From: Selenomonas sputigena
GTDB lineage: Bacteria; Bacillota; Negativicutes; Selenomonadales; Selenomonadaceae
Length of the DNA: 38,167 nucleotides
Direction: 5' to 3'
Assembly: GCF_026015965.1 (NCBI RefSeq)
Contig: NZ_CP110383.1
Location: forward strand, 2,575,814 to 2,613,980
The notes below the pieces were generated by a model. That model had not been told where the DNA came from, made no database searches, and worked only from the letters and a program-made list of their open reading frames with translations. Below are positions 3,890-24,441 of the stretch, piece by piece. The position numbers and the translations under genes are program-made. How positions within the stretch are numbered: the stretch's first letter is position 1; each line of letters starts with the position of its first letter.

Positions 3890-6145
3890 ATGACAAAATC
3901 TTCTGCTTATCTTGGGCATCTTGATGAGGAAACGGGGCGCGAGCAGCTTTTGTGCGACCATCTGACGGGCGTTGCCGATCTTGCGGGACGCTTTGCCGCC
4001 GCTTTCGGTGAGGAGGCGATGGGGCGGCTCTTGGGCTTGTATCACGATATCGGCAAGTATTCGCGCGAGTTTCAAGCGTATCTGCGTGCGGGCGAGGAGG
4101 AGAAGAAACGGCGCAGGGGGCGCATCGATCATTCGACGGCAGGGACGCAGGAGATCGTGAGGCTGCGGCAGAGCGCGGACGATGAGCAAAGCAGAAGGCT
4201 TGGCAGAGGCATGGCGCAGGTGATGGCGTTCTGCATCGCAGGGCATCATGGCGGCATACCGAACCGGGGTACGACGGCGAATACAGCGGAAGAAGGTACG
4301 CTTTTGAGTAGGCTCAAGCGTCAGAATCTGCCCGATTACCGCGCTTATCACGAGGCCGATCTGCCCCAGACCTTGCCACCGTCGCTCTTGTTGGAGCAGG
4401 TCGCCCGCGCACCGTTTTCCGCGATGCTCTATACGCGCATGCTTTTCTCCTGTCTCGTCGATGCAGATTTTCTCGACACGGAAGATTTCATGTCGGCGGG
4501 GAATGTCGAGCGGGAAGGTTTTGCTTCTATGGAAACCTTGCTCGAACGTCTGCAGGAGAGCCTTGAAGAGAAATTCTCGAAGCCGAAGACGGAAAAAGAG
4601 AAGCGGAAGCTGGAATTGCCGATCAACAAAAAACGCTCTGCACTCCTCGCCGAGAGCATCGCCGCAGGAAAAGAAGCAAAAGGAAATTTATACCGGCTAA
4701 CCGTACCGACGGGAGGGGGCAAGACGATTTCTTCCCTGGCGTTTGCCCTGCATTATGCCGCTCATGCCAAGAGGAAGCGCAGGCGCATCATCTACGTCAT
4801 ACCGTATACGTCGATCATCGAGCAGAATGCTGCTGTCTTTCGGGATCTGCTGGGGCCGGACAGTGTCGTCGAGCATCATCAGAATGTGGATTATGACGAT
4901 GTGCAGGATATGGATATGAACCGCAAGCGGTTGGCGACGGAGAACTGGGATGCGCCCGTCATTGTGACGACGAACGTGCAGTTTTTCGAATCGCTTTTTT
5001 CCAATCGCCCGTCGAAATGCCGCAAATTGCACAATCTTGCCGAGAGCATCGTGATTTTCGATGAGGCGCAGATGATTCCACTCGATTATCTGCGTCCCTC
5101 GCTTGCCGCAATCGAGGCGCTCGTGCGGCACTATGCGTGTACGGCGGTGCTCTGCACGGCGACGCAGCCGCCTCTGGGACAGTTTTTCTCCGATGATATG
5201 CAGCCGCTGGAAATCTGCCCGGCGCTCATGGAAAATGCAGCGTTTTTCCGGCGCACGAAGATCGAGCTGCGCGAAGAGGTGATGACGGAAGAGGAGCTTG
5301 CCGAAGAGCTGGCGGCTCATGAGCAGGTGCTTTGCATCGTCAATGTGAAAAAGACGGCGCAGAGTGTCTTCGATTTGCTGCGGGAAGACGAAGGAACGTA
5401 CCACTTGTCCACGAATCTCTATCCTGTGCATCGCGAGCAGGTATTGGAGGAGATTCGCGCACGGCTCAAGGACGGCAAGCCGTGCCGCGTCATTTCGACG
5501 AGCCTCGTGGAGGCCGGCGTTGACCTCGACTTCCCCTGCGTCTATCGTGAGATCAACGGCCTCGACAGCATAGTGCAGGCGGCGGGCCGCTGCAACCGCG
5601 AGGGCAGGAGGACGGCGGAGGAAAGCGTTGTGCATGTATTTTCTCTGGAAAAACTGGCGAAAAATGCACAGCTTGCCGCTGGGATCACAAAGAATGTGGC
5701 GCGGAGCTTCGGTGAAGATTTGGCGAATCCCGAGGCGATTCGCAGCTACTTTGCAGAGCTTTACGATCTGAGCGGCAAGAATCGTCTGGACAAGAAAGAC
5801 ATCATGGGACAGTCGGGGAAGTTTGCCTTTGCCGATATTGCAAACGATGTCCGCCTGATCGAGGATCGTACCAAGCCGATCTTCATTCCGCAAACCGAGG
5901 CGGGACAGGCGCTCTTGGCGCGGCTGGAACAAGGAGAGAGATCGCGTTCGCTTATGCGAAAGGTCGGACGCTACATCGTGACTGTCTATACGGGATATGC
6001 TGAAGCGCCGTTCGAACAGCTTGCCGCGCAGGGAAAGATCCGTATGCTTGATGAAAACCTCGCCGTGCTCGTTGATATGGCGGTATATGACTCAGAAAAG
6101 GGACTGTCGAATAATGTTGGAGAGGGAGAAGGAATGTTCCTGTAG
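3890..6145 (+). CDS. cas3: Type I-C CRISPR nuclease-helicase Cas3
   Basis: Cas3 is recruited to a full R-loop made by Cascade and degrades the target DNA. The 751-residue protein has an N-terminal HD nuclease domain, with His24, His52-Asp53 in YHDIGKYS, His81 and the pair His119-His120 in AGHHGG. A superfamily 2 helicase follows: Walker A VPTGGGKT near 272-280, DEAQ at 391-394, CTATQPP, and QAAGRCNREGR as motif VI. All core motifs look intact. The start ATG follows GGGGAGGAAG. Unlike in compact type I-C operons, cas5 does not follow directly: a 355-bp gap with its own promoters lies in between, so cas3 is probably transcribed separately from the Cascade genes. Confidence 0.96.
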   Translation: MTKSSAYLGHLDEETGREQLLCDHLTGVADLAGRFAAAFGEEAMGRLLGLYHDIGKYSREFQAYLRAGEEEKKRRRGRIDHSTAGTQEIVRLRQSADDEQSRRLGRGMAQVMAFCIAGHHGGIPNRGTTANTAEEGTLLSRLKRQNLPDYRAYHEADLPQTLPPSLLLEQVARAPFSAMLYTRMLFSCLVDADFLDTEDFMSAGNVEREGFASMETLLERLQESLEEKFSKPKTEKEKRKLELPINKKRSALLAESIAAGKEAKGNLYRLTVPTGGGKTISSLAFALHYAAHAKRKRRRIIYVIPYTSIIEQNAAVFRDLLGPDSVVEHHQNVDYDDVQDMDMNRKRLATENWDAPVIVTTNVQFFESLFSNRPSKCRKLHNLAESIVIFDEAQMIPLDYLRPSLAAIEALVRHYACTAVLCTATQPPLGQFFSDDMQPLEICPALMENAAFFRRTKIELREEVMTEEELAEELAAHEQVLCIVNVKKTAQSVFDLLREDEGTYHLSTNLYPVHREQVLEEIRARLKDGKPCRVISTSLVEAGVDLDFPCVYREINGLDSIVQAAGRCNREGRRTAEESVVHVFSLEKLAKNAQLAAGITKNVARSFGEDLANPEAIRSYFAELYDLSGKNRLDKKDIMGQSGKFAFADIANDVRLIEDRTKPIFIPQTEAGQALLARLEQGERSRSLMRKVGRYIVTVYTGYAEAPFEQLAAQGKIRMLDENLAVLVDMAVYDSEKGLSNNVGEGEGMFL

Positions 6146-6184
6146 ATTCGCTGCATGAAATCGTGGTTCTCCGCACAGACGAAA

Positions 6185-6212
6185 GCGGGGAGATTTGAAA
6201 AAATCTCCCCGC
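6185..6212 (-). terminator. Perfect 12-bp hairpin at the end of the CreR-like RNA
   Basis: GCGGGGAGATTT pairs with AAATCTCCCCGC without a mismatch around a 4-base loop (GAAA on the plus strand). On the minus strand it is followed by TTTCGTCT, a weak U-tract; on the plus strand no T-run follows. It therefore suits the 3' end of the minus-strand guide RNA better than a cas3 terminator, and it sits where a normal array would carry its second repeat. Confidence 0.5.
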
Positions 6213-6273
6213 ACTCGCGCATCATATGTCCTAACAAAAATTTCAATCCTCGTGCAGACATGATCTCCACGAC
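6185..6273 (-). ncRNA. CreR-like Cas-regulating RNA: degenerate repeat plus guide plus hairpin
   Basis: Read on the minus strand, 6273-6240 is a 34-nt degenerate CRISPR repeat. It begins GTCG and ends GGATTGAAAT like the array repeat. Its middle has diverged but still folds: TCGTG pairs with CACGA, with an inner AGA/TCT helix. The putative 11-nt handle (AGGATTGAAAT) differs from the array handle at one base. The guide-like part starts at 6239 with TTTTGTTAGGA, and a perfect 12-bp hairpin with a short loop ends the element at 6212-6185. The predicted transcription start is near 6273, exactly where the repeat begins. A guide of this design, matching the cas5 promoter, fits the Cas-regulating RNAs known from other CRISPR types. 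The RNA itself is inferred, not observed. Confidence 0.75.
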
Positions 6274-6279
6274 GATGTT

Positions 6280-6307
6280 AGTTTACCATGCATCTGCAAG
6301 AAGTCAA
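6280..6307 (-). promoter_or_regulatory. Promoter of the CreR-like RNA
   Basis: On the minus strand: TTGACT (6307-6302), a 16-base spacer and TAAACT (6285-6280) with an extended -10 TGG. It is one copy of a promoter element also found at 17083, 17252 and 21329, including the short GCC-N3-GGC hairpin just upstream of the -35. It points away from cas5. The AT-rich stretch between this promoter and the cas5 promoter could serve both as an upstream element. Confidence 0.7.
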
Positions 6308-6419
6308 GCCTAAGGCGAGAATTGATGGATTTCGCATAATGTGGTGACTATGGAGCATTTAGAAATTATTGTTTTTATGTATTTTTTTCGATTTTCTTAG
6401 TGAATTGTAGAATTTCAAA

Positions 6420-6448
6420 TTGACAGAGTTAATTTTTTATGATATGCT
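6420..6448 (+). promoter_or_regulatory. cas5 operon promoter
   Basis: A consensus TTGACA (6420-6425), a 17-base spacer and TATGCT (6443-6448) with an extended -10 TGA. Transcription would start near 6455 and give a ~46-nt leader before the cas5 ATG. It should drive cas5-cas8c-cas7-cas4-cas1-cas2 as one unit. Confidence 0.75.
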
Positions 6449-6480
6449 TTCTACAAATAAAATATTTCCTAACAAAAGAA
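6443..6480 (-). promoter_or_regulatory. Predicted Cascade binding site (PAM plus protospacer) over the cas5 promoter
   Basis: On the minus strand a TTC, the usual type I-C PAM, lies at 6480-6478. The adjoining 6477-6467 is TTTTGTTAGGA, identical to the first 11 nt of the CreR-like guide. Positions 13-16 also match; 12 and 17 do not, and pairing largely ends after that. A 35-nt protospacer would run to 6443 and cover the transcription start and the -10 box, so bound Cascade would block transcription. The limited pairing would favour binding without Cas3 cleavage. Confidence 0.72.
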
Positions 6481-6500
6481 AAACATATGGAGGTGATTTT

Positions 6501-7157
6501 ATGGCCTATGGCGTTCGCCTTGAGGTTTGGGGCGAAGCGGCGTGCTTCACGCGACCGGAATTGAAGGCGGAGCGCTTTTCCTACGCCGTCATGACGCCGA
6601 GCGCGGCGAGGGGTGTCTTAGAAGCCGTCTTCTGGCATCCCGGCTTGCATTGGGTGGTTGATCGCATCTATGTCCTCGCCAAGACACAATTCACGAATGT
6701 CCGCCGCAATGAGCTCAAGGCAAAGATTCCTGCGCGTACGGTGAAGGCTTTTGCGGAGAAAGAGCGTGGGGAACTCTATCAGTCCACGAAGGAGGATATC
6801 CAGCAGCGTGCCGCCACTATCTTGAAGGAGCCGCATTACATCATTGAAGCGCATTTCGAGATGACGGAGAAGGCATCGGCATCGGACAACGAGGGAAAAT
6901 TCCGTGAGATGTTCTGCCGACGCGCGCGCAAGGGACAGTGCTATCATGCACCGTATTTGGGCTGCCGCGAGTTTCCCGCGCGCTTCCGGCTGTACGAGGA
7001 AGCGGAGCTTCCGTCGACAAATGGGGAAACGAAAGATCTGGGCTTCATGCTCTATGATATCGACTACTCGGATCCCAAGAATCTTCGGCCGATGTTTTTC
7101 CAAGCACAGCTTGTGGACGGCGTGCTCGACCTTAGGGATTGTGAGGTGTATCGCTGA
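6501..7157 (+). CDS. cas5c: Type I-C Cas5 (Cas5c/Cas5d), repeat-processing Cascade subunit
   Basis: In type I-C, Cas5 cleaves the CRISPR repeat hairpin to make crRNAs, leaving an 11-nt 5' handle, and then stays bound to the handle in Cascade. The 218-residue product begins MAYGVRLEVWGEAACFTRPE, the characteristic Cas5 N-terminus with a Gly-containing first strand. I chose the ATG at 6501 because AGGAGGTGAT-type Shine-Dalgarno sequence (GGAGGTGA) lies at ideal spacing and the predicted promoter is just upstream; the frame is open to 6420 but those residues are not Cas5-like. cas8c begins directly after the stop. There is no cas6 in the locus, as expected for this subtype. Confidence 0.95.
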   Translation: MAYGVRLEVWGEAACFTRPELKAERFSYAVMTPSAARGVLEAVFWHPGLHWVVDRIYVLAKTQFTNVRRNELKAKIPARTVKAFAEKERGELYQSTKEDIQQRAATILKEPHYIIEAHFEMTEKASASDNEGKFREMFCRRARKGQCYHAPYLGCREFPARFRLYEEAELPSTNGETKDLGFMLYDIDYSDPKNLRPMFFQAQLVDGVLDLRDCEVYR

Positions 7158-8897
7158 ATGCTCCAAGCACTGGTTGAAAGATATGAGACGGAGTGCAAAG
7201 AGGGACGGTTGCCCAGAGATGGTTGGGAGAAGCGTAATGTTTCCTTTGCGCTCTTGCTTTCCAAAGAAGGAGAATTGCTTCAAGTATTGCCGCTCATCCA
7301 GAAGGTTTTGCGCGGCAAGAAGGAAGTGGATCGACCGCAGGAACTTATTGTTCCGGCAGGAGAAACGAGGACGGTTGGCATAGCCCCGTTTTTCCTTTGT
7401 GATAATTCGTCGTATTTTTTAGGCGCCGATATGAAAGGAAAGCCCAAGCGTACAGCAGAATGTTTTGCGGCTGCGAAGGCCCTGCACGAGGAGATCCTGG
7501 ATGGTGCGGGGTCGGACGCTGCTCGCGCTGTCATCGCTTTTTTCGGGCACTGGCAGGGCGGTGAATCGATGGTGCGCACGCATCCGGCCCTCGCCCCCTA
7601 TGCCGATGAGATTATTGCCGGGGCGAATCTCGTATTCCGTGTGGCGAGCACCTTCGTGCACGAAGAGCCGGCCGTGCGTGAGGCTTGGGAAACGCATCTC
7701 GATGCGAGCGGCGCTGAGGAAAAACGCCGCTGCCTCGTGACGGGCACATTGGCGCCGATCGCCGTCAAGCATCCGGCGCTCAAAGGAGTCAGCGGCGCCC
7801 AAGCAACGGGAGCCATGCTCGTCTCCTTCAATGCCAATGCCTACGAATCCTACGGTCACGACGGCGAGCAGGGCGGCAATGCTCCCGTGTCGAAGAAGGC
7901 GGCGTTTGCCTACGGCACGGCGCTCAATGCCCTGCTTGCTGATCGCGAGCATACGAAGATCATAGGCGACACGACGATGGTCTATTGGGCCGAGGAGGAG
8001 AGCGAGGCGGCACAAGACTTGCTTTGCGGCATGCTTTTCGGCGATGAAGATAAGATGACCGATGATCTGCTGGATTCCGTGCTGAAAAAGGTGCAGGCAG
8101 GGGCGGCTATCGACTACGAGGGCGTGGCAATCTCCTATGCCAATCCTTTTTATATCCTGGGTCTGGCGCCCAATGCGGCGCGGCTTTCCGTACGCTTCTT
8201 CCTGCAAGGATCTTTCGGAGATTTCTTGAGGAATCTCGCCCTGCACATGGAGCAGATGAAGATTGTCCGCCCGAGCTGGGAGACGCGCGGCAATGTGCCA
8301 TTGTGGGAGCTCCTGCGCGAAACGGTGAATCCCAACGCCAAGGTGAAGATGGCTTCTCCCATCATGGCAGGAGCTATGCTGCGAGCCGTTTTGACCGGCA
8401 GCAAGTATCCTGTGTCCGTATTCCAAAACATTTTGCTGCGCATTCATGCAGAGCAGGGGGAGCGGAAAATCAATGCAAGGCGCGCCGGCTTTTTGAAAGC
8501 ATATTTGATGCGAAATCGAGGGAGGAAGATCGCTGTGGCATTAGATGAAAACTCGACCGATGTTGCTTATTTGCTCGGACGCTGGTTCGCCGTTTTGGAA
8601 GAGGTGCAGGAGAAGGCGAATCCTGAGATCAAGGCGACGATTCGCGACCGTTTCTTTGATTCTGCCTGTGGAACGCCGGCGCATGTGTTCCCGATGCTGC
8701 AGAAGCTCGCGCTTCATCACTTGAAAAAGTTGGAGACGGTTCCCAGAGTCTATTTGGACAAGAAGCTGTCGGAGATCATGGGAAAGCTGAATGCCAAGGA
8801 TATGCCGCGTCATTTGCCGCTTGAGGAGCAGGGTGTATTCATCCTTGGTTACTATCATCAGAAGCAGAAGCGGTACGAAAAGAAGGAGGAAAAGTAA
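7158..8897 (+). CDS. cas8c: Type I-C Cas8c (Csd1), large Cascade subunit
   Basis: Cas8c recognises the PAM, helps open the DNA duplex and recruits Cas3. The 579-residue length is normal for the Csd1 family. A typical conserved stretch lies near the middle: GAMLVSFNANAYESYGHDGE followed by a Gly-Asn-Ala-Pro segment. The C-terminus is Lys/Glu rich. The ATG follows the cas5 stop with no spacing, and cas7 starts right after its own TAA, so the genes are tightly coupled. Type I-C operons commonly also make a small subunit from an internal start inside cas8c; I have not assigned that start here. Confidence 0.94.
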   Translation: MLQALVERYETECKEGRLPRDGWEKRNVSFALLLSKEGELLQVLPLIQKVLRGKKEVDRPQELIVPAGETRTVGIAPFFLCDNSSYFLGADMKGKPKRTAECFAAAKALHEEILDGAGSDAARAVIAFFGHWQGGESMVRTHPALAPYADEIIAGANLVFRVASTFVHEEPAVREAWETHLDASGAEEKRRCLVTGTLAPIAVKHPALKGVSGAQATGAMLVSFNANAYESYGHDGEQGGNAPVSKKAAFAYGTALNALLADREHTKIIGDTTMVYWAEEESEAAQDLLCGMLFGDEDKMTDDLLDSVLKKVQAGAAIDYEGVAISYANPFYILGLAPNAARLSVRFFLQGSFGDFLRNLALHMEQMKIVRPSWETRGNVPLWELLRETVNPNAKVKMASPIMAGAMLRAVLTGSKYPVSVFQNILLRIHAEQGERKINARRAGFLKAYLMRNRGRKIAVALDENSTDVAYLLGRWFAVLEEVQEKANPEIKATIRDRFFDSACGTPAHVFPMLQKLALHHLKKLETVPRVYLDKKLSEIMGKLNAKDMPRHLPLEEQGVFILGYYHQKQKRYEKKEEK

Positions 8898-9782
8898 ATG
8901 GCGGAAGCAATCAAAAATCGGTATGATTTTGTCATTCTTTTTGATGTCGAAAACGGCAATCCGAACGGCGATCCCGATGCGGGCAACATGCCGCGCGTCG
9001 ATCAAGAGACCGGACACGGACTGGTCACCGACGTTTGCCTCAAGCGGAAGATTCGCAACTACGTGGAAACGGCGCAGGAAGGGAAGCCGGGCTATCGCAT
9101 TTACATCAAGGAAAACGTGCCGCTCGCTCAAAGCGACCAAGAGGCCTGTGACCACCTCGGCATCAAGGACATCAAGAAGGTCAAGGCCTCAGATCCTGCG
9201 ATTGACGGCAAGATTCGCGACTTCATGTGCAGCAATTTCTTCGATATCCGCACCTTCGGCGCCGTCATGACGACCTTCGTGCAGGGAGCGCTGAACTGCG
9301 GGCAGGTACGCGGTCCCGTGCAGCTCGGTTTTGCGCGCAGCATCGATCCCATTCTGCCGCAGGAGATTACCATTACGCGCACGGCGATCACGACGATCAA
9401 GGATGCGCAGACGAAGAAGACGGAAATCGGTCGTAAGTTCATCGTACCCTATGCGCTCTACAAGGTCGAAGGCTATGTCTCGGCAAACCTCGCGCGCAAG
9501 ACGACGGGCTTTTCCGAAGAGGACTTGGCGCTCTTGTGGCAGGCGATCCTGCGCATGTTTGAGCTTGACCGCTCGGCGGCGCGCGGCAATATGGCGACGC
9601 GCGAACTCATCGTCTTCCGCCACGAAAGCGAGCTTGGCAATGCGCCGTCCTACAAGCTTTTTGAGCGCATTCATGTCAAAAAGAAGGCGGCGGAGGAGCC
9701 GGCACGCAGCTATCAGGATTATGAGGTCACCGTCGATGAAGCAGATCTGCCGGAAGGTGTGACCTGCACGCGCATGAGCTGA
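8898..9782 (+). CDS. cas7: Type I-C Cas7 (Csd2), crRNA-backbone subunit
   Basis: Cas7 polymerises along the crRNA spacer to form the Cascade backbone. Its thumbs kink the guide every sixth base, which matters for the guide/target pairing described at 6443-6480. The 294-residue protein begins with RYDFVILFDVENGNPNGDPD, the family signature, and contains GFARSIDPILPQEITITR in the middle. The ATG directly follows the cas8c stop with a good Shine-Dalgarno (AAGGAGGAAAAG) overlapping the end of cas8c. Its stop shares a base with the cas4 start. Confidence 0.96.
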   Translation: MAEAIKNRYDFVILFDVENGNPNGDPDAGNMPRVDQETGHGLVTDVCLKRKIRNYVETAQEGKPGYRIYIKENVPLAQSDQEACDHLGIKDIKKVKASDPAIDGKIRDFMCSNFFDIRTFGAVMTTFVQGALNCGQVRGPVQLGFARSIDPILPQEITITRTAITTIKDAQTKKTEIGRKFIVPYALYKVEGYVSANLARKTTGFSEEDLALLWQAILRMFELDRSAARGNMATRELIVFRHESELGNAPSYKLFERIHVKKKAAEEPARSYQDYEVTVDEADLPEGVTCTRMS

Positions 9783-10441
9783 TGGCATATCGCGAAGAGG
9801 AGTGGCTGGATGTCGCCGGCATCCAGCATTTCCTCTTTTGCCGCAGGCAATGGGCGCTCATTCACATCGAGCAGCAATGGCAGGAAAACTTGCGCACAGT
9901 CGAGGGGCAGATTGTCCACGAGAAATGTCATGACGGCAGCCTGCACGAATCGCGCGGGGATTTGCTCGTGGCGCGCGCTCTGCGCATTTCCTCGGCAAAG
10001 CTCGGCGTGAGCGGCGTCTCGGATGTCGTGGAATTTCACAGGGAAAAGACAGGCGCGAGGCTGCACGGGCAGGAAGGATTTTGGCGTCCCGTCCCCGTTG
10101 AATACAAGCGCGGCAAACCGAAAGATGGCGGAGAGGATGTTTCGCAGCTCGTTCTGCAGGCTCTTTGCCTTGAGGAGATGCTTTGCTGTCATATCCCTGT
10201 CGGTTATCTTTTTTATGATGAAATCCATCGGCGGCAGAAGGTGGAAATCACGCAAGATTTGCGAGATTTCGTTCTTCATACGCTCGCTGAAATGCACAAG
10301 GAATATTCCCGCAGGGCGACACCCAAGGTCAAGGTGACGAAAAAATGCCGCAACTGTTCTCTGAAAGACCTGTGTCTGCCGAAGCTGCAAAAAACGGTGG
10401 GCGTTTCCGACTATTATGCAGCTGCCTTGAAGGGGGTGTGA
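9782..10441 (+). CDS. cas4: CRISPR adaptation nuclease Cas4
   Basis: Cas4 is a RecB-type exonuclease with an iron-sulfur cluster that trims prespacers and helps to select those with a correct PAM. The 219-residue protein has the four expected cluster cysteines: Cys20 in FLFCRRQW and the C-terminal trio Cys189, Cys192 and Cys198 in CRNCSLKDLC. The nuclease motif VEYKRGKPK supplies the catalytic Glu and Lys. Its ATG overlaps the cas7 stop by one base. Cas4 with Cas1 and Cas2 completes the adaptation module, so the locus should be able to gain new spacers if expressed. Confidence 0.94.
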   Translation: MAYREEEWLDVAGIQHFLFCRRQWALIHIEQQWQENLRTVEGQIVHEKCHDGSLHESRGDLLVARALRISSAKLGVSGVSDVVEFHREKTGARLHGQEGFWRPVPVEYKRGKPKDGGEDVSQLVLQALCLEEMLCCHIPVGYLFYDEIHRRQKVEITQDLRDFVLHTLAEMHKEYSRRATPKVKVTKKCRNCSLKDLCLPKLQKTVGVSDYYAAALKGV

Positions 10442-10444
10442 GCT

Positions 10445-11476
10445 ATGCGTCATATGCTCAATACCCTGTTCATTTTGACCGAAGATGCGTATGTGGCTTT
10501 GGAAAATGAGAATGTCGTCGTACTGCAGGAAGAAAAAGTGCTGGGGCGGATTCCGCTGCTCACTTTGGAAAATATCCTTTGCTTTACTTATAAGGGCGCG
10601 AGTCCTGCCTTGATGGGCGCGTGCGCCCAAGCGAAAATCGGGCTTTGCTTTTTTAGTCCGCGCGGGCGATTTCTTGCCCGCTCTTGTGGGGATGTGCGAG
10701 GCAATGTGCTCCTGCGCAAGGAGCAGTATCGCCGCTCGGAAGATGATGCGGAGAGTGCTAAACTCGCGGCGGATTTCCTTTTCGGAAAAATCTTCAACAC
10801 GCGTACCCTTGTCGAAAGGATGAAGCGCGACCATCCGCTGAGCTTGGATCTGACGGCGCTTGCGCAAGTGAGCGCGGAACTCAAAAGCAGCCTGCAGAGC
10901 TTGCATCGAGTGCAGTCGCTTGATGAAATGCGCGGTATTGAAGGAAATGCCGCACATCTGTACTTCTCGTTGTTCAATCAATTCATTTTGCAGAACAAGG
11001 ACGCATTTTCCCTGGAAGGCCGCCTCAAACGTCCGCCTCTCGATCGCGTCAATGCCATGCTGTCTTTTCTGTATACCGTGCTGGCGCATGACTGTGCCTC
11101 CGCGTTGGAAGGCGTGGGACTTGATGCGTATGTCGGCTTCCTGCACCGCGATCGCCCGGGCAGGGAATCTTTGGCGCTCGATCTCATGGAGGAGCTACGA
11201 AGTCTCTTTGTCGATCGCCTCGTACTCACGCTGATCAACAATCGCATCATCAAGCCGGAGCATTTTGAGAAAAAAGAGAACGGCGCCGTCTGGCTCAATG
11301 ATTCTGGGCGTAAGCTCGTCCTCAAGGAATGGCAGGATAAGAAGCGGGAACAGATCACGCATCCGTTTCTCAAGGAAAAACTCCCTTGGGGCTTGGTTCC
11401 CTATGCCCAATCCCTCCTGCTGGCACGATATTTACGCGGCGACTTGGAGGAATATCCGGCGTTTTTGTGGAAATAA
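10445..11476 (+). CDS. cas1: CRISPR integrase Cas1
   Basis: Cas1 is the metal-dependent integrase that inserts new spacers at the leader end of the array, as a Cas1-Cas2 complex. The 343-residue product begins MRHMLNTLFILTEDAYVALE. Catalytic residues are in place: the Glu in GIEGNAAHLYF, the His in GFLHRDRPGRESL and the acidic residues just after it. The start at 10445 has a GGGGGTG ribosome site; the ATG at 10454 is a possible alternative. It lies three bases after cas4 and ahead of cas2 in normal type I-C order. Confidence 0.96.
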   Translation: MRHMLNTLFILTEDAYVALENENVVVLQEEKVLGRIPLLTLENILCFTYKGASPALMGACAQAKIGLCFFSPRGRFLARSCGDVRGNVLLRKEQYRRSEDDAESAKLAADFLFGKIFNTRTLVERMKRDHPLSLDLTALAQVSAELKSSLQSLHRVQSLDEMRGIEGNAAHLYFSLFNQFILQNKDAFSLEGRLKRPPLDRVNAMLSFLYTVLAHDCASALEGVGLDAYVGFLHRDRPGRESLALDLMEELRSLFVDRLVLTLINNRIIKPEHFEKKENGAVWLNDSGRKLVLKEWQDKKREQITHPFLKEKLPWGLVPYAQSLLLARYLRGDLEEYPAFLWK

Positions 11477-11503
11477 GCAGGAAAGATGGAGGGGGCGGTG
11501 GAA

Positions 11504-11794
11504 ATGTTGATTCTCGTGACATACGATGTCAATACGGAAACACCTGCCGGCCGCACACGCTTGAGAAAAGTGGCGAAATGCTGCGTGCGCCACGGACAGC
11601 GCGTGCAGAACTCCGTGTTTGAATGCGTTCTCGATGAAGCGCAATTTTGCGCCCTGCGGCATGAATTGACTACTTTGATCGACCAAGAAAAGGACAGCCT
11701 GCGTTTCTATAATTTGGGCAATAAATACGCAGGAAAAACGCAGCACGTTGGTGCAAAACCAAGTTATGAGGCTGAAGGAACACTGATGCTGTAG
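11504..11794 (+). CDS. cas2: CRISPR adaptation protein Cas2
   Basis: Cas2 forms the central dimer of the spacer-integration complex. The 96-residue protein starts MLILVTYDVNTETPAGRTRL and contains RVQNSVFECVLD and HVGAKP, all typical of subtype I-C Cas2. The upstream GAGGGGGCGG favours the ATG at 11504; six extra in-frame residues from 11486 are not conserved in style. It is the last cas gene, followed by the leader and the array. Confidence 0.95.
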   Translation: MLILVTYDVNTETPAGRTRLRKVAKCCVRHGQRVQNSVFECVLDEAQFCALRHELTTLIDQEKDSLRFYNLGNKYAGKTQHVGAKPSYEAEGTLML

Positions 11795-11953
11795 TAGGCA
11801 TCTCCTTCGCGAGAATGGCCGCAAAATCTCTGTGCGAACCCGTATCACACAGAGGACTTTGCGACGAAAAATGCCTGTAACAGCACGGCCAAAAATGAGG
11901 TTCGCGAAAAATATAGCGCGACCGCTGTAATTAAGCCCGTGTAAACAGGCACA
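11795..11953 (+). promoter_or_regulatory. CRISPR leader
   Basis: A 159-bp non-coding stretch between cas2 and the first intact repeat, the usual place of the leader. It holds an inverted repeat, CTCTGTG/CACAGAG, near 11827-11853 and an AT-rich tract (GAAAAATATAG) about 50 bases before repeat 1. It should contain the array promoter and the integration signals, but I cannot assign a clear -35/-10 pair. The degenerate repeat at the far end of the array supports this orientation. Confidence 0.65.
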
Positions 11954-12568
11954 GTCGCGCCCCACGCGGGCGCGTGGATTGAAATCGAAAGATAAACCGA
12001 CAATCTTGATCGGTGCCTTGTCGCGCCCCACGCGTGGGGCGCGACGTGGCGCCCTTTTTGTATGCAGAGGCGAGGCACATATTTCAATCCACGCGCCCGC
12101 GGGCGCGTGGATTGAAATATCAATTAAGAGCTGTATGCTTTTATCTAATTCCGTCGCGCCCCACGCGGGCGCGTGGATTGAAATGAGGATTCATGTGAAA
12201 CATTTTCGGCTTGCTGCTCGTCGCGCCCCACGCGGGCGCGTGGATTGAAATGTCGCGGGCTACGATCTCAAGAACAGCCTCCGCAGTCGCGCCCACGCGG
12301 GCGCGTGGATTGAAATCTTATGACGACGCTGGGCGCGAAGGGGCTCGCAGTCGCGCCCACGCGGGCGCGTGGATTGAAATGGGTCGAGCACGTTGATGAA
12401 GATGATCGGCTTGAGTCGCGCCCCCATGCGGGGCGCGTGGATTGAAATACGTTGGAGAATTACGTCAAGCAAGGCACGATGAGTCGCGCCCCACGCGGGC
12501 GCGCGGATTGCAATCTGAAATACACCGACAAGAAGAACCTCCGCACATGTCGCTCCCCACGCGGGCGT
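11954..12568 (+). CRISPR. Type I-C CRISPR array, ten repeats and nine spacers
   Basis: The consensus repeat is 32 nt, starting GTCGCGCCCC and ending GGATTGAAAT, with a CGCGCCC/GGGCGCG stem. Repeats start at 11954, 12020, (12101, right half only), 12153, 12220, 12286, 12350, 12415, 12483 and 12549. Spacers are 33-35 nt. Repeats 2 and 3 are scrambled by an inversion around the second spacer. Repeats 6 and 7 lack one C. Repeat 8 is 34 nt with one extra C and one extra G in its arms. Repeat 9 has two changes in the handle region (GCGCGGATTGCAAT), and repeat 10 is truncated after ACGCGGGCG. Decay at this end marks it as leader-distal, so the leader is on the cas2 side. Confidence 0.97.
12031..12104 (-). 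repeat. Inverted spacer with flanking half-repeats inside the array
   Basis: The second repeat runs forward to ACGCG near 12034 and then continues as the reverse complement of its own 5' half, giving a perfect 26-bp palindrome at 12020-12045. A 35-nt spacer follows (12046-12080). Then comes the reverse complement of a repeat 3' half (ATTTCAATCCACGCGCCC), joined to a forward 3' half at 12101: a perfect 38-bp palindrome at 12081-12118. A single inversion between the cores of two neighbouring repeats explains all of this. Exact breakpoints cannot be placed because the cores are self-complementary. Confidence 0.88.
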
Positions 12569-12743
12569 GATACAAAGATAAGTGCGACACTCAAAAACGC
12601 GAGGAATACGGGCTTTGGTAAGCCTCCTGTGAGGCGTGCTTGGTCAAGGATGCGCGACAGAACATTTTGCGCATTGAGTCCTGAAAAATGATTTAAACAA
12701 AACTCTTGGCACACCCAGAACTCGCGAAAAAAGGAGAGGCATC

Positions 12744-13246: not shown

Positions 13247-14169
13247 TCTGACGCATGTGAAGTGGCTGCCGAATCGTTTCGGCGGTTCGGAGAGCAAGTG
13301 GACGATGCAGTACAACGACAAGCTCTATTATGGTGAAGTTTCCCGATCCCAATCGAGCACCGAAACAAACATCGCTGCCATACATCAACAATCATTTCTC
13401 TGAATATATCGGCTGCCATATATTTCAGATGCTGGGGATTCCGGCACAAAACACTTTCTTGAGACGTGCTACGCCGCCGAACAGCGAAAAAGAGAAGCTT
13501 GTTGTGGCGTGCGAGGTCTTTTCTCCGAGCAGCGAAGGTATTCTCATTGAATTCAGCAAGTTCTTTTTACATGAGACGGACAGCCAGAAACGGAGCAAGA
13601 CTACGATTGACGATGTTATGTATATCATCGATACCGATGTGACGATAAAGAACAAGATGTTCTTGAAAAAGTTTTTCTGGGAAATGTTTGTAGTGGATGC
13701 TGCTATTGGCAATACGGATCGTCATTTGGATAATTGGGGCGTGATGGCATCGTCTGATGGCAAAATATCTCCCGCGCCTGTATATGATTGCGGTTCAGCG
13801 CTTTCTCCGCTAGTGTCTGACAGGGAAAAAGAGGAACTCTTGGAAGATGATATAAGCTTCAAAAATACAGAGTATAGCTTGTGTTCTGTCTATCGTCATC
13901 AAGGAAAGCGAATCTTCTACCATGAAATCTTGAAAGCGCCTCCGGCTGACCTGCATCGGTCGATTTTGGAGATTGTCCCAAGAATCAAGCTCGCGGTACC
14001 GCGCATCGACGTGCTGATTGATGCGACGGAGGGAATGACCGACATTTCCAAAACCTACATGAAGAAATCCCTCGCCATGCGCCTGAATCAGATGCTGCTT
14101 CCAGCATTGAAGAAAGCGCAGGAGCGTCAGGCTCGCGAGGATGGGGAAAGCCGCGGCTTCAGCCGCTGA
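13239..14169 (+). pseudogene. HipA-like (CtkA-type) kinase, interrupted by one frameshift
   Basis: HipA-type proteins are Ser/Thr kinases of toxin modules. The gene begins at ATG 13239 (MVDLTHVKWLPNRFGGSESK), but after NDKLY one extra T near 13328 (TATTATGG instead of TATATGG) shifts the frame, and the first frame stops near 13401. The kinase continues from ATG 13330 (MVKFPDPNRAPKQTSLPYIN), which carries the presumed ATP-binding Lys. The catalytic segment GNTDRHLDNWG and the metal-binding segment VYDCGSAL are intact, ending 14169. So it is either a one-base pseudogene, a sequencing error or a shortened kinase starting at 13330. The catalytic core could still be made from 13330 as 279 residues. 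Confidence 0.75.
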
Positions 14170-17066: not shown

Positions 17067-17082
17067 TCTGCGCCCTCCGGGC

Positions 17083-23535: not shown

Positions 23536-24441
23536 ATGAAAAAGGGTTGGATGAAGCGTGCGGGGTGGCGAGCCTTCGCGCTTGGCGCATGTGCTTTTGG
23601 GGGATGGAGCACGCAGGCTTTCGCCGCCCGCATCGACCCGCAGGAGCTTGAGCAGCTGCGCGGCACGGTCGGCATGCTGCTTGAAGACGTCGAGGAATTT
23701 TACCATGTGACGCTCTTGATTGAGTCGTTCATGATCTTCGTGCTGCTGGCGCTGATCGTCGTCGGGCTCGTTGGCTATATCAAGCTGAGAAAGGAAGTTC
23801 GGGAACTGCGGCGGCGCATTTGCGGCGAGGACGATTTTGCGGCAGAGCCGCCCGAGGACATCGACTCTCCTTTTGAGCCGATGCCAACGCCTGAGCCGAT
23901 GCCGGAGCCTGAGCCGATGCCAGAGCCTGAGCCGATGCCAACGCCTGAGCCGATGCCAGAGCCTGAACCAGAGCCAGAGCCAGAGCCGGAGTCGGAGCCG
24001 GAATCGCCGCCGATCGTACGCTTTATGGAAGCGTACAGCGAGGCGAACGATATAGAAGACCCGGCGCTGCAAAAAGCGCGTTTTGCCAGCCTCTTGGCGG
24101 AGTTTTCCAGCAAGAGGTTCACCTGCACGAATCCTGAGGATCGGAAGACGAACCCGAATGCGCCGCCGACATTTGAAACGAGAGATGAAGGAGACTTCTG
24201 GGCTGTTGAGAAGGGTGACGGTTCGGACGATTACTACGTCATTCCCGATCCCACGTTTCCGTACAGTGAAGAACGCCATCGCTTCTGCGGCATGAAGGAA
24301 GCATTCGCTTCGAACTACCAAGAGGGCAAGACGTACACGCACATGGAGATCGAAGCTCCCGCGCGTTTCAGCCTCATGGGCAGCCTCTGGGCGCCGCAGC
24401 GCCCCGGTAAGATCGTGCTGTCGGGAGAACAAGACGCATAG
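23536..24441 (+). CDS. Unknown secreted or membrane protein with Pro-Glu-Met repeats
   Basis: A 301-residue product with a signal-like N-terminus ([20 protein letters not shown], then [11 protein letters not shown]). A single membrane helix follows ([20 protein letters not shown]) with a basic stretch after it. A low-complexity region is built from EPMPEPEP and PTPEPMPE units (nucleotides ~23875-24000), then a C-terminal domain of ~140 residues that I do not recognise. The start at 23536 follows GGGGAGG at good spacing; the frame is open upstream to 23473. The Pro/Glu stretch resembles a rigid spacer such as that of TonB. It starts about 70 bp after the EAL gene and may be in its operon. The function is unknown. 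Confidence 0.7.

Follow-up and report, generated by a model that had tools for sequence, protein, structure and literature searches.

Type I-C locus and the gap between cas3 and cas5

The window analysed here is a stretch of 38,167 nucleotides from Selenomonas sputigena. An NCBIfam scan found in it a complete type I-C locus comprising cas3, cas5c, cas8c, cas7, cas4, cas1c and cas2, the gene content that places it in this type. The cas3 gene ends at 6145 and cas5 starts at 6501, leaving a gap of 355 nt that holds a guide RNA element and its target. The features of the region are listed below by position.

3890-6145, plus strand: cas3, upstream of the gap
6185-6212, minus strand: hairpin of 12 bp with a loop of 4, replacing a second repeat; probable terminator with a weak T tail, TTTCGTCT
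6213-6239, minus strand: guide of 27 nt, TTTTGTTAGGACATATGATGCGCGAGT
6240-6273, minus strand: degenerate type I-C repeat of 34 nt, GTCGTGGAGATCATGTCTGCACGAGGATTGAAAT, with GTC, stem CGTG/CACG and handle GGATTGAAAT
6280-6307, minus strand: guide-RNA promoter, TTGACT (6307-6302), 16 nt, TAAACT (6285-6280)
6420-6448, plus strand: predicted promoter of cas5 (Cascade operon), TTGACA-17-TATGCT, predicted start about 6455
6461-6477, plus strand: guide target, PAM-proximal base 6477; positions 1-11 and 13-16 match, 12 and 17 mismatch
6478-6480, minus strand: PAM TTC (GAA on the plus strand), adjoining the seed match
6501-11794, plus strand: target operon cas5c, cas8c, cas7, cas4, cas1, cas2 (type I-C)
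11951-12514, plus strand: CRISPR array with the canonical I-C repeat GTCGCGCCCCACGCGGGCGCGTGGATTGAAAT

As cas3 lies 5′ of the gap, it is outside the operon whose start is targeted. The cas5 leader is predicted to be 46 nt long, measured from the predicted start to the ATG.

The array is short and irregular over the stretch 11951-12580, with repeat halves inverted at 12020-12045 and 12081-12118, compared with 87 counted copies of the same array repeat in a sister species (L044). A gene with a HipA-like C-terminal domain (13330-14169) is located near the array, and 18-nt tandem repeats (TGAGCCGATGCC...) were found at 23856-24011. Rfam contained no family for the guide-RNA region; the four matches up to E = 5 were all far below the gathering scores.

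Anatomy of the guide RNA element

An earlier reading made from the sequence alone (the sequence-only reading) had proposed a promoter, a degenerate repeat, a guide and a hairpin on the minus strand of the gap, and every one of these parts was found. It had also stated that both ends of the array repeat are retained; GTCG and GGATTGAAAT are indeed common to the element repeat and the array repeat, and the former was probably derived from the canonical I-C array repeat. With 6 nt between the −10 box and the repeat, transcription is predicted to start at the first repeat base (6273), as had been expected. The stem claimed to precede the handle forms when the repeat is folded alone (−10.8 kcal/mol) but is absent from the minimum-energy fold of the 89-nt RNA, in which the guide pairs with parts of the repeat and the handle. 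Processing may therefore be inefficient or need a protein. The hairpin at 6212-6185 was the sole terminator-like site found in 6100-6560, compared with a mean of 0.4 in shuffled sequences. Repeat (6273-6240) and guide (6239-6213) together form a crRNA-like unit in the cas3-cas5 gap, outside the array, which is the situation of a CreR.

The guide-RNA promoter (6308-6284, minus strand) is also a degenerate member of a dispersed repeat, CTTGAC-N-TCTTG-N6-CATGGTA, for which the genome has 26 exact pattern matches and 0 matches to the reversed control pattern; 12 copies were read. In the window, copies are located at 6308-6284 (minus strand) and at 17082, 17251 and 21328 (plus strand). Alignment revealed that a sister species (L002) lacks 83 nt at the guide-RNA promoter, and the promoter of the present strain may thus stem from an inserted repeat.

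Target site and PAM

Of the first 16 guide positions, 15 match the cas5 leader, and the site adjoins a TTC PAM. TTC is the I-C PAM in P. aeruginosa (PMC7913775) and TTC/TTT that in N. lactamica (PMC10865793). The combination of TTC and the seed, any base being allowed at position 6, has a single occurrence in the 2.61-Mb genome (window 6467-6480), and a 10/10 seed with TTC was obtained for the window guide in 0 of 2000 Markov shuffles of the region. The window element and its guide match are real, and well above chance. The match had been assigned to the promoter of the Cascade operon. The site is indeed upstream of cas5, but it spans positions 6461-6477, which are +7 to +23 by the predicted start of the cas5 transcript; it lies in the 5′ leader, just past the promoter core and not within it. 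As in CreR, the guide matches only in part and does so next to a proper PAM, in the promoter region of the cas operon to which the unit belongs.

Recurrence among relatives

Searches with Cas5c found 2 of 2 genomes in the genus, 41 of 189 in the family (E 0.001, many of the matches weak), 43 of 380 in the class (1e-30) and 72 of 398 in the phylum (1e-30); the order-level search covered 189 genomes again and added no loci. Upstream DNA was taken for all 43 class genomes, that of L020 being interrupted by a contig end, and for the best 30 of the 72 from the phylum; among named genomes the best 80 of 573 were used. Loci sharing 150 nt upstream of cas5 were merged as duplicates, and the 163 loci with a cas5 position gave 139 distinct upstream regions, some of them short at contig ends. 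L024 to L030 gave no hit.

In the class, the unit was found upstream of cas5 in 10 of the 43 genomes (L001, L002, L003, L005, L006, L014, L016, L033, L037 and L041). It is present at cas5 in 27 of the 139 distinct upstream regions, 25 identified by the target-blind rule given below and two (L006, L086) by guide match, and the majority of sampled I-C loci are without it. The layout had been presented as one of Negativicute I-C loci; it does occur in Negativicutes, but contigs titled Lachnospiraceae and Clostridia carry it too. The 150 nt upstream of cas5 in L110, on a contig titled uncultured Clostridium, are identical to those of L041 and of L082, whose contig is titled uncultured Phascolarctobacterium; this identity would reflect either transfer or a mis-binned MAG contig.

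The cas3-cas5 gap is 198-370 nt in 21 loci with the element in the same orientation, except for L098 (76 nt). The 112 other regions with a measurable gap have a median of 30.5 nt, with 91 at 120 nt or less; the remaining 21 consist of five opposite-strand loci and 16 wide gaps without a detected unit. Evidently, the unit accompanies a wider gap, and it is mostly accompanied by a separate predicted cas5 promoter. In L112, L122 and L127 an element is located before cas3, so that cas3 may be under control too.

Target-blind test and swap controls

Candidates were collected from the 139 cas5 upstream regions by a rule that ignores the target, namely a GTC, a stem of 4 bp or longer and agreement with the handle at 7 or more of its 9 bases. 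The rule was framed after the first positives and is thus blind to the target while not independent of the sample; matches over at least 23 of 24 positions, mostly array duplicates, were excluded from the counts. It returned 31 candidates, 25 on the minus strand (25 loci) and six on the plus strand (L053, L091). For every one of the 25 minus-strand candidates, its own region contains a site with a seed of at least 9/10 beside TTC (24) or TTT (one, L100). The target is on the guide's own strand in 19 and on the opposite strand in six (L092, L093, L116, L125, L129, L131), and 15 of the 19 same-strand targets begin within 30 nt of the cas5 start. The six plus-strand candidates have no site of at least 9/10 beside TTC/TTT in their own region. 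At least five additional sites that reach 9/10 or better adjoin other triplets.

Upstream of cas3 (73 distinct regions), all three minus-strand candidates match (L112, L122, L127), with an opposite-strand target in L122. The plus strand there gave 55 candidates in eight loci, several of which resemble array repeats; the element of L053 matches. The L053 element (404-565, from a Negativicute of another family, G264) is a plus-strand I-C repeat-guide-hairpin unit, whose target lies just before a small HTH_Tnp_1 (transposase-type) gene beside cas3; the PAM is TTC, and positions 6 and 12 are mismatched. Judging by this placement, Cascade may silence a transposase-like or regulatory gene in L053.

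The opposite strand was searched only after some candidates had shown no good same-strand site, and the final detector covers both strands. Nine candidates were looked at in this respect. Seven of them, with good repeats, lacked a good same-strand site, and all seven showed a seed of 9-10/10 with TTC on the two-strand scan; the other two, L124 and L168, fail the target-blind rule. The opposite-strand elements (L092, L093, L116, L122, L125, L129, L131) lie on contigs titled Lachnospiraceae or other Clostridia. L006 and L086 have a guide match and were rejected by the stem rule, L006 for a broken stem and L086 for want of a GTC start.

With these two and the three elements at cas3 (L112, L122, L127), the 25 target-blind elements make up a set of 30. 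When the best site was chosen without regard to the PAM, the seed matched 10/10 in 22 and 9/10 in eight, and the adjoining triplet was TTC in 29 and TTT in one. Best sites of the 870 swapped guide-locus pairs reached 10/10 in eight and 9/10 in 113, with TTC in 41; a seed of at least 9/10 together with TTC/TTT was found in 12. With TTC required and one strand scanned, 9/10 was reached in 7 of 380 swaps versus 19 of 20 own pairs, the twentieth being L100 with its TTT. Several of the 30 were noticed through the match (L115, L112 and L127 were first seen in this way), and the target-blind 25/25 is therefore the cleaner figure.

The matches per guide position 1-24 (n = 30) were 29, 30, 29, 30, 30, 8, 29, 28, 30, 30, 27, 3, 22, 26, 20, 20, 15, 10, 10, 9, 12, 10, 8 and 4, where the high counts at positions 1-5 and 7-11 come partly from selection, since these positions served to choose the sites. 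Outside the seed score, position 6 matches in eight, position 12 in three, and positions 13-16 in 20-26. Cascade structures show that the guide is read in blocks of five, every sixth base being unpaired. Matching at 13-16 and not at 6 and 12 is as expected if every sixth base stays unpaired in Cascade.

Conservation and co-variation of the parts

Conservation of handle, guide and hairpin across related I-C loci had been suggested as a check. Where the unit occurs, its handle, stem, start site and hairpin have for the most part been preserved, in contrast to the guide sequence. The guide differs between loci, yet matches the cas upstream region of its own locus beside a TTC (once TTT) PAM, and a guide matched to its own locus is stronger evidence than plain conservation. 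The comparison with L002 illustrates this turnover at close range. Its cas5 is identical at 634 of 657 nt and the last 1200 nt of its cas3 at 1142, the handle is fully kept and the hairpin nearly so. The guide seed reads TTGTGTTTGGT in L002 versus TTTTGTTAGGA in the window, and the target is altered at the identical three positions.

The anatomy was compared in 23 elements, none of them one of the seven opposite-strand elements. Pair 1 of the repeat stem is C-G in 22, and pairs 2 to 4 are formed in 22, 21 and 21, with four or five pair types at each, the GTC start having been picked for best stem pairing, which introduces a slight bias. In the best promoter match, the distance from the end of the −10 box to the repeat is exactly 6 nt in 14 of the 23 and 7 nt in two more. 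A hairpin follows the handle by 17-31 nt in 22; L098 has none.

Alternative explanations

An ordinary antisense sRNA could account for part of these observations: the guide would block translation by base-pairing close to the ribosome site in the leader of the cas5 mRNA, the likeness to a repeat being incidental. The guides of the window and of the other same-strand elements are complementary to the predicted cas mRNA leader, as this explanation needs. However, a PAM is not needed for pairing with mRNA, and yet 29 of the 30 best sites adjoin TTC and the other TTT; nor would mRNA pairing leave positions 6 and 12 seldom matched when their neighbours are. The target site is upstream of the consensus-predicted cas5 start in L100, L109, L114 and L120, lying in the last three between two divergent predicted promoters. 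In addition, six cas5 elements and one cas3 element target the opposite strand, so that the guide runs in the sense of the cas mRNA, which makes pairing between the two impossible. Together, the PAM, the dips at 6 and 12 and the opposite-strand targets form a pattern that antisense pairing with mRNA cannot explain, and we regard this explanation as very improbable.

We give no better chance to a CreA-like antitoxin, in which the guide would repress a small toxin gene hidden in the gap and cas5 would not be the real target. CreA RNAs have a like make-up (PMC9458426), and the L053 element does point at an HTH gene beside cas3. The window target, on the other hand, sits in the cas5 leader, which at just 46 nt offers hardly any room for another gene, and most of the 19 same-strand targets among the 25 cas5 elements begin close to the cas5 start, as counted above. 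That the unit is a dead fragment of a CRISPR array with a chance similarity to the promoter is scarcely credible: the repeat is diverged and single and most sampled I-C loci lack the unit, but it recurs with stem, start site and hairpin largely kept, and its guide matches the target in 25/25 target-blind candidates against 12/870 best sites of swaps.

Relation to known regulatory RNAs

By its make-up and its target, the window unit would work like CreR, the cas-regulating RNA (Liu et al. 2023, Cell Host Microbe, as reviewed in PMC13131331, PMC12737573 and PMC12948488). In the reviews CreR is attributed to types I-B, I-E and V-A (PMC13131331) or, more loosely, to 'Type I and Type V-A' (PMC12737573). 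The window unit differs in belonging to type I-C, with Cas5c instead of Cas6 as the processing enzyme; in having one repeat, at whose first base transcription is predicted to begin, with a hairpin replacing the second repeat; and in that cas3 is outside the targeted operon. CreR takes a two-repeat mini-CRISPR form and the window unit does not, a feature that we did not treat as defining.

Stand-alone repeats beside cas genes, with a spacer partly matching cas promoters and mostly in type I, were reportedly described by Shmakov et al. in 2023 (NAR), and the window unit resembles these crRNA-like regulatory elements in being a stand-alone repeat by cas genes. In type II systems, tracr-L is a natural guide whose short complementarity makes Cas9, and no Cascade, a repressor. 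The type II scaRNA is similar to the window unit in that a natural guide of short complementarity turns the effector into a repressor, but it is Cas9-based and does without Cascade (PMC9458426).

The sequence-only reading knew of no described case of this layout, with a hairpin replacing the second repeat, in a type I-C Negativicute locus. CreA, the sister RNA, has a single-repeat form and one repeat can suffice for it (PMC9458426), so the single repeat is not new as such. CreA of CreTA shares with the window unit the degenerate repeats (one or two), the partial guide match beside a TTC PAM and repression by Cascade, but it silences a toxin RNA and is described for type I-B with Cas6 (PMC9458426); here the target is the cas operon, and the guide is directed at the cas5 leader rather than at the promoter of a linked toxin. 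Racr, or solitary phage repeat units, are likewise single repeat-like RNAs, often directly after a promoter, with an I-C member, RacrIC1 (PMC10651486). They are carried by viruses and plasmids away from cas genes and inhibit Cas proteins (PMC10651486), whereas the window unit carries a guide whose target is in the cas locus, lies inside that locus and is not a guideless repeat on a mobile element. For I-C loci, a palindromic RNA candidate some 300 bases ahead of cas3 has also been listed (PMC9067536).

A literature search found no report of an I-C CreR, and none of the start-at-repeat I-C form, of a hairpin in place of the second repeat or of an opposite-strand sub-class, within a reach that excluded the primary papers, Liu 2023 and Shmakov 2023. 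To that extent, the I-C form with one repeat and a hairpin would be a CreR-type RNA of a form not described before.

Proposed mechanism and meaning

Very probably, the element encodes a CreR-type RNA that is cut by Cas5c and directs the I-C Cascade to the head of the operon encoding it, so that this operon is repressed. The anatomy, PAM, seed match, guide-target co-variation and recurrence described above are the ground from which we infer its transcription, processing, binding, repression and relief. Strong pairing extends over 11-17 nt, too short for a full R-loop and attack by Cas3, and Cascade would thus stay in place and block transcription. In type I systems, short pairing should hold Cascade without licensing Cas3.

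The transcript would be leaderless and crRNA-like, starting at the first repeat base and ending at the hairpin. Cas5c is the processing enzyme of I-C crRNA (PMC7684278), and a single Cas5c cut below the repeat stem would leave the I-C handle followed by some 27 nt of guide, the terminator hairpin standing in for the 3′ repeat hairpin. Cascade (Cas5c-Cas8c-Cas7) loaded with this RNA would bind the TTC-flanked site at the head of the cas5-8-7-4-1-2 operon. The N. lactamica I-C Cascade has been shown, in N. gonorrhoeae, to lower transcription from a promoter at which it is aimed (PMC10865793). An excess of Cascade would in this manner lead the operon to repress itself, and repression should lift when array crRNAs occupy Cascade or an anti-CRISPR disables it. 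At the sites of L109, L114 and L120, bound Cascade could block both divergent predicted promoters.

On balance, we lean towards seeing these elements as an I-C-specific class of autorepressors across Negativicutes and Clostridia. Its members would be leaderless, with one repeat, one Cas5c cut and a terminator replacing the 3′ repeat; guide and target would turn over together, at such a speed that sister species already differ, and an opposite-strand sub-class would exist. With cas3 often outside the feedback, Cascade and not Cas3 would be what is sensed.

The 30 natural, co-varying guide-target pairs also document the small extent of pairing that may suffice for Cascade to stay on a site and leave it uncut, and they display the apparent every-sixth-base rule in natural sequence. 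The layout of promoter, repeat, guide and terminator is simple and could be used in I-C silencing as a compact cassette for guides. If the proposed mechanism is true, type I-C systems can be equipped with an internal throttle responsive to free Cascade, and this throttle bears on when these bacteria are immune and on how anti-CRISPRs act on them.
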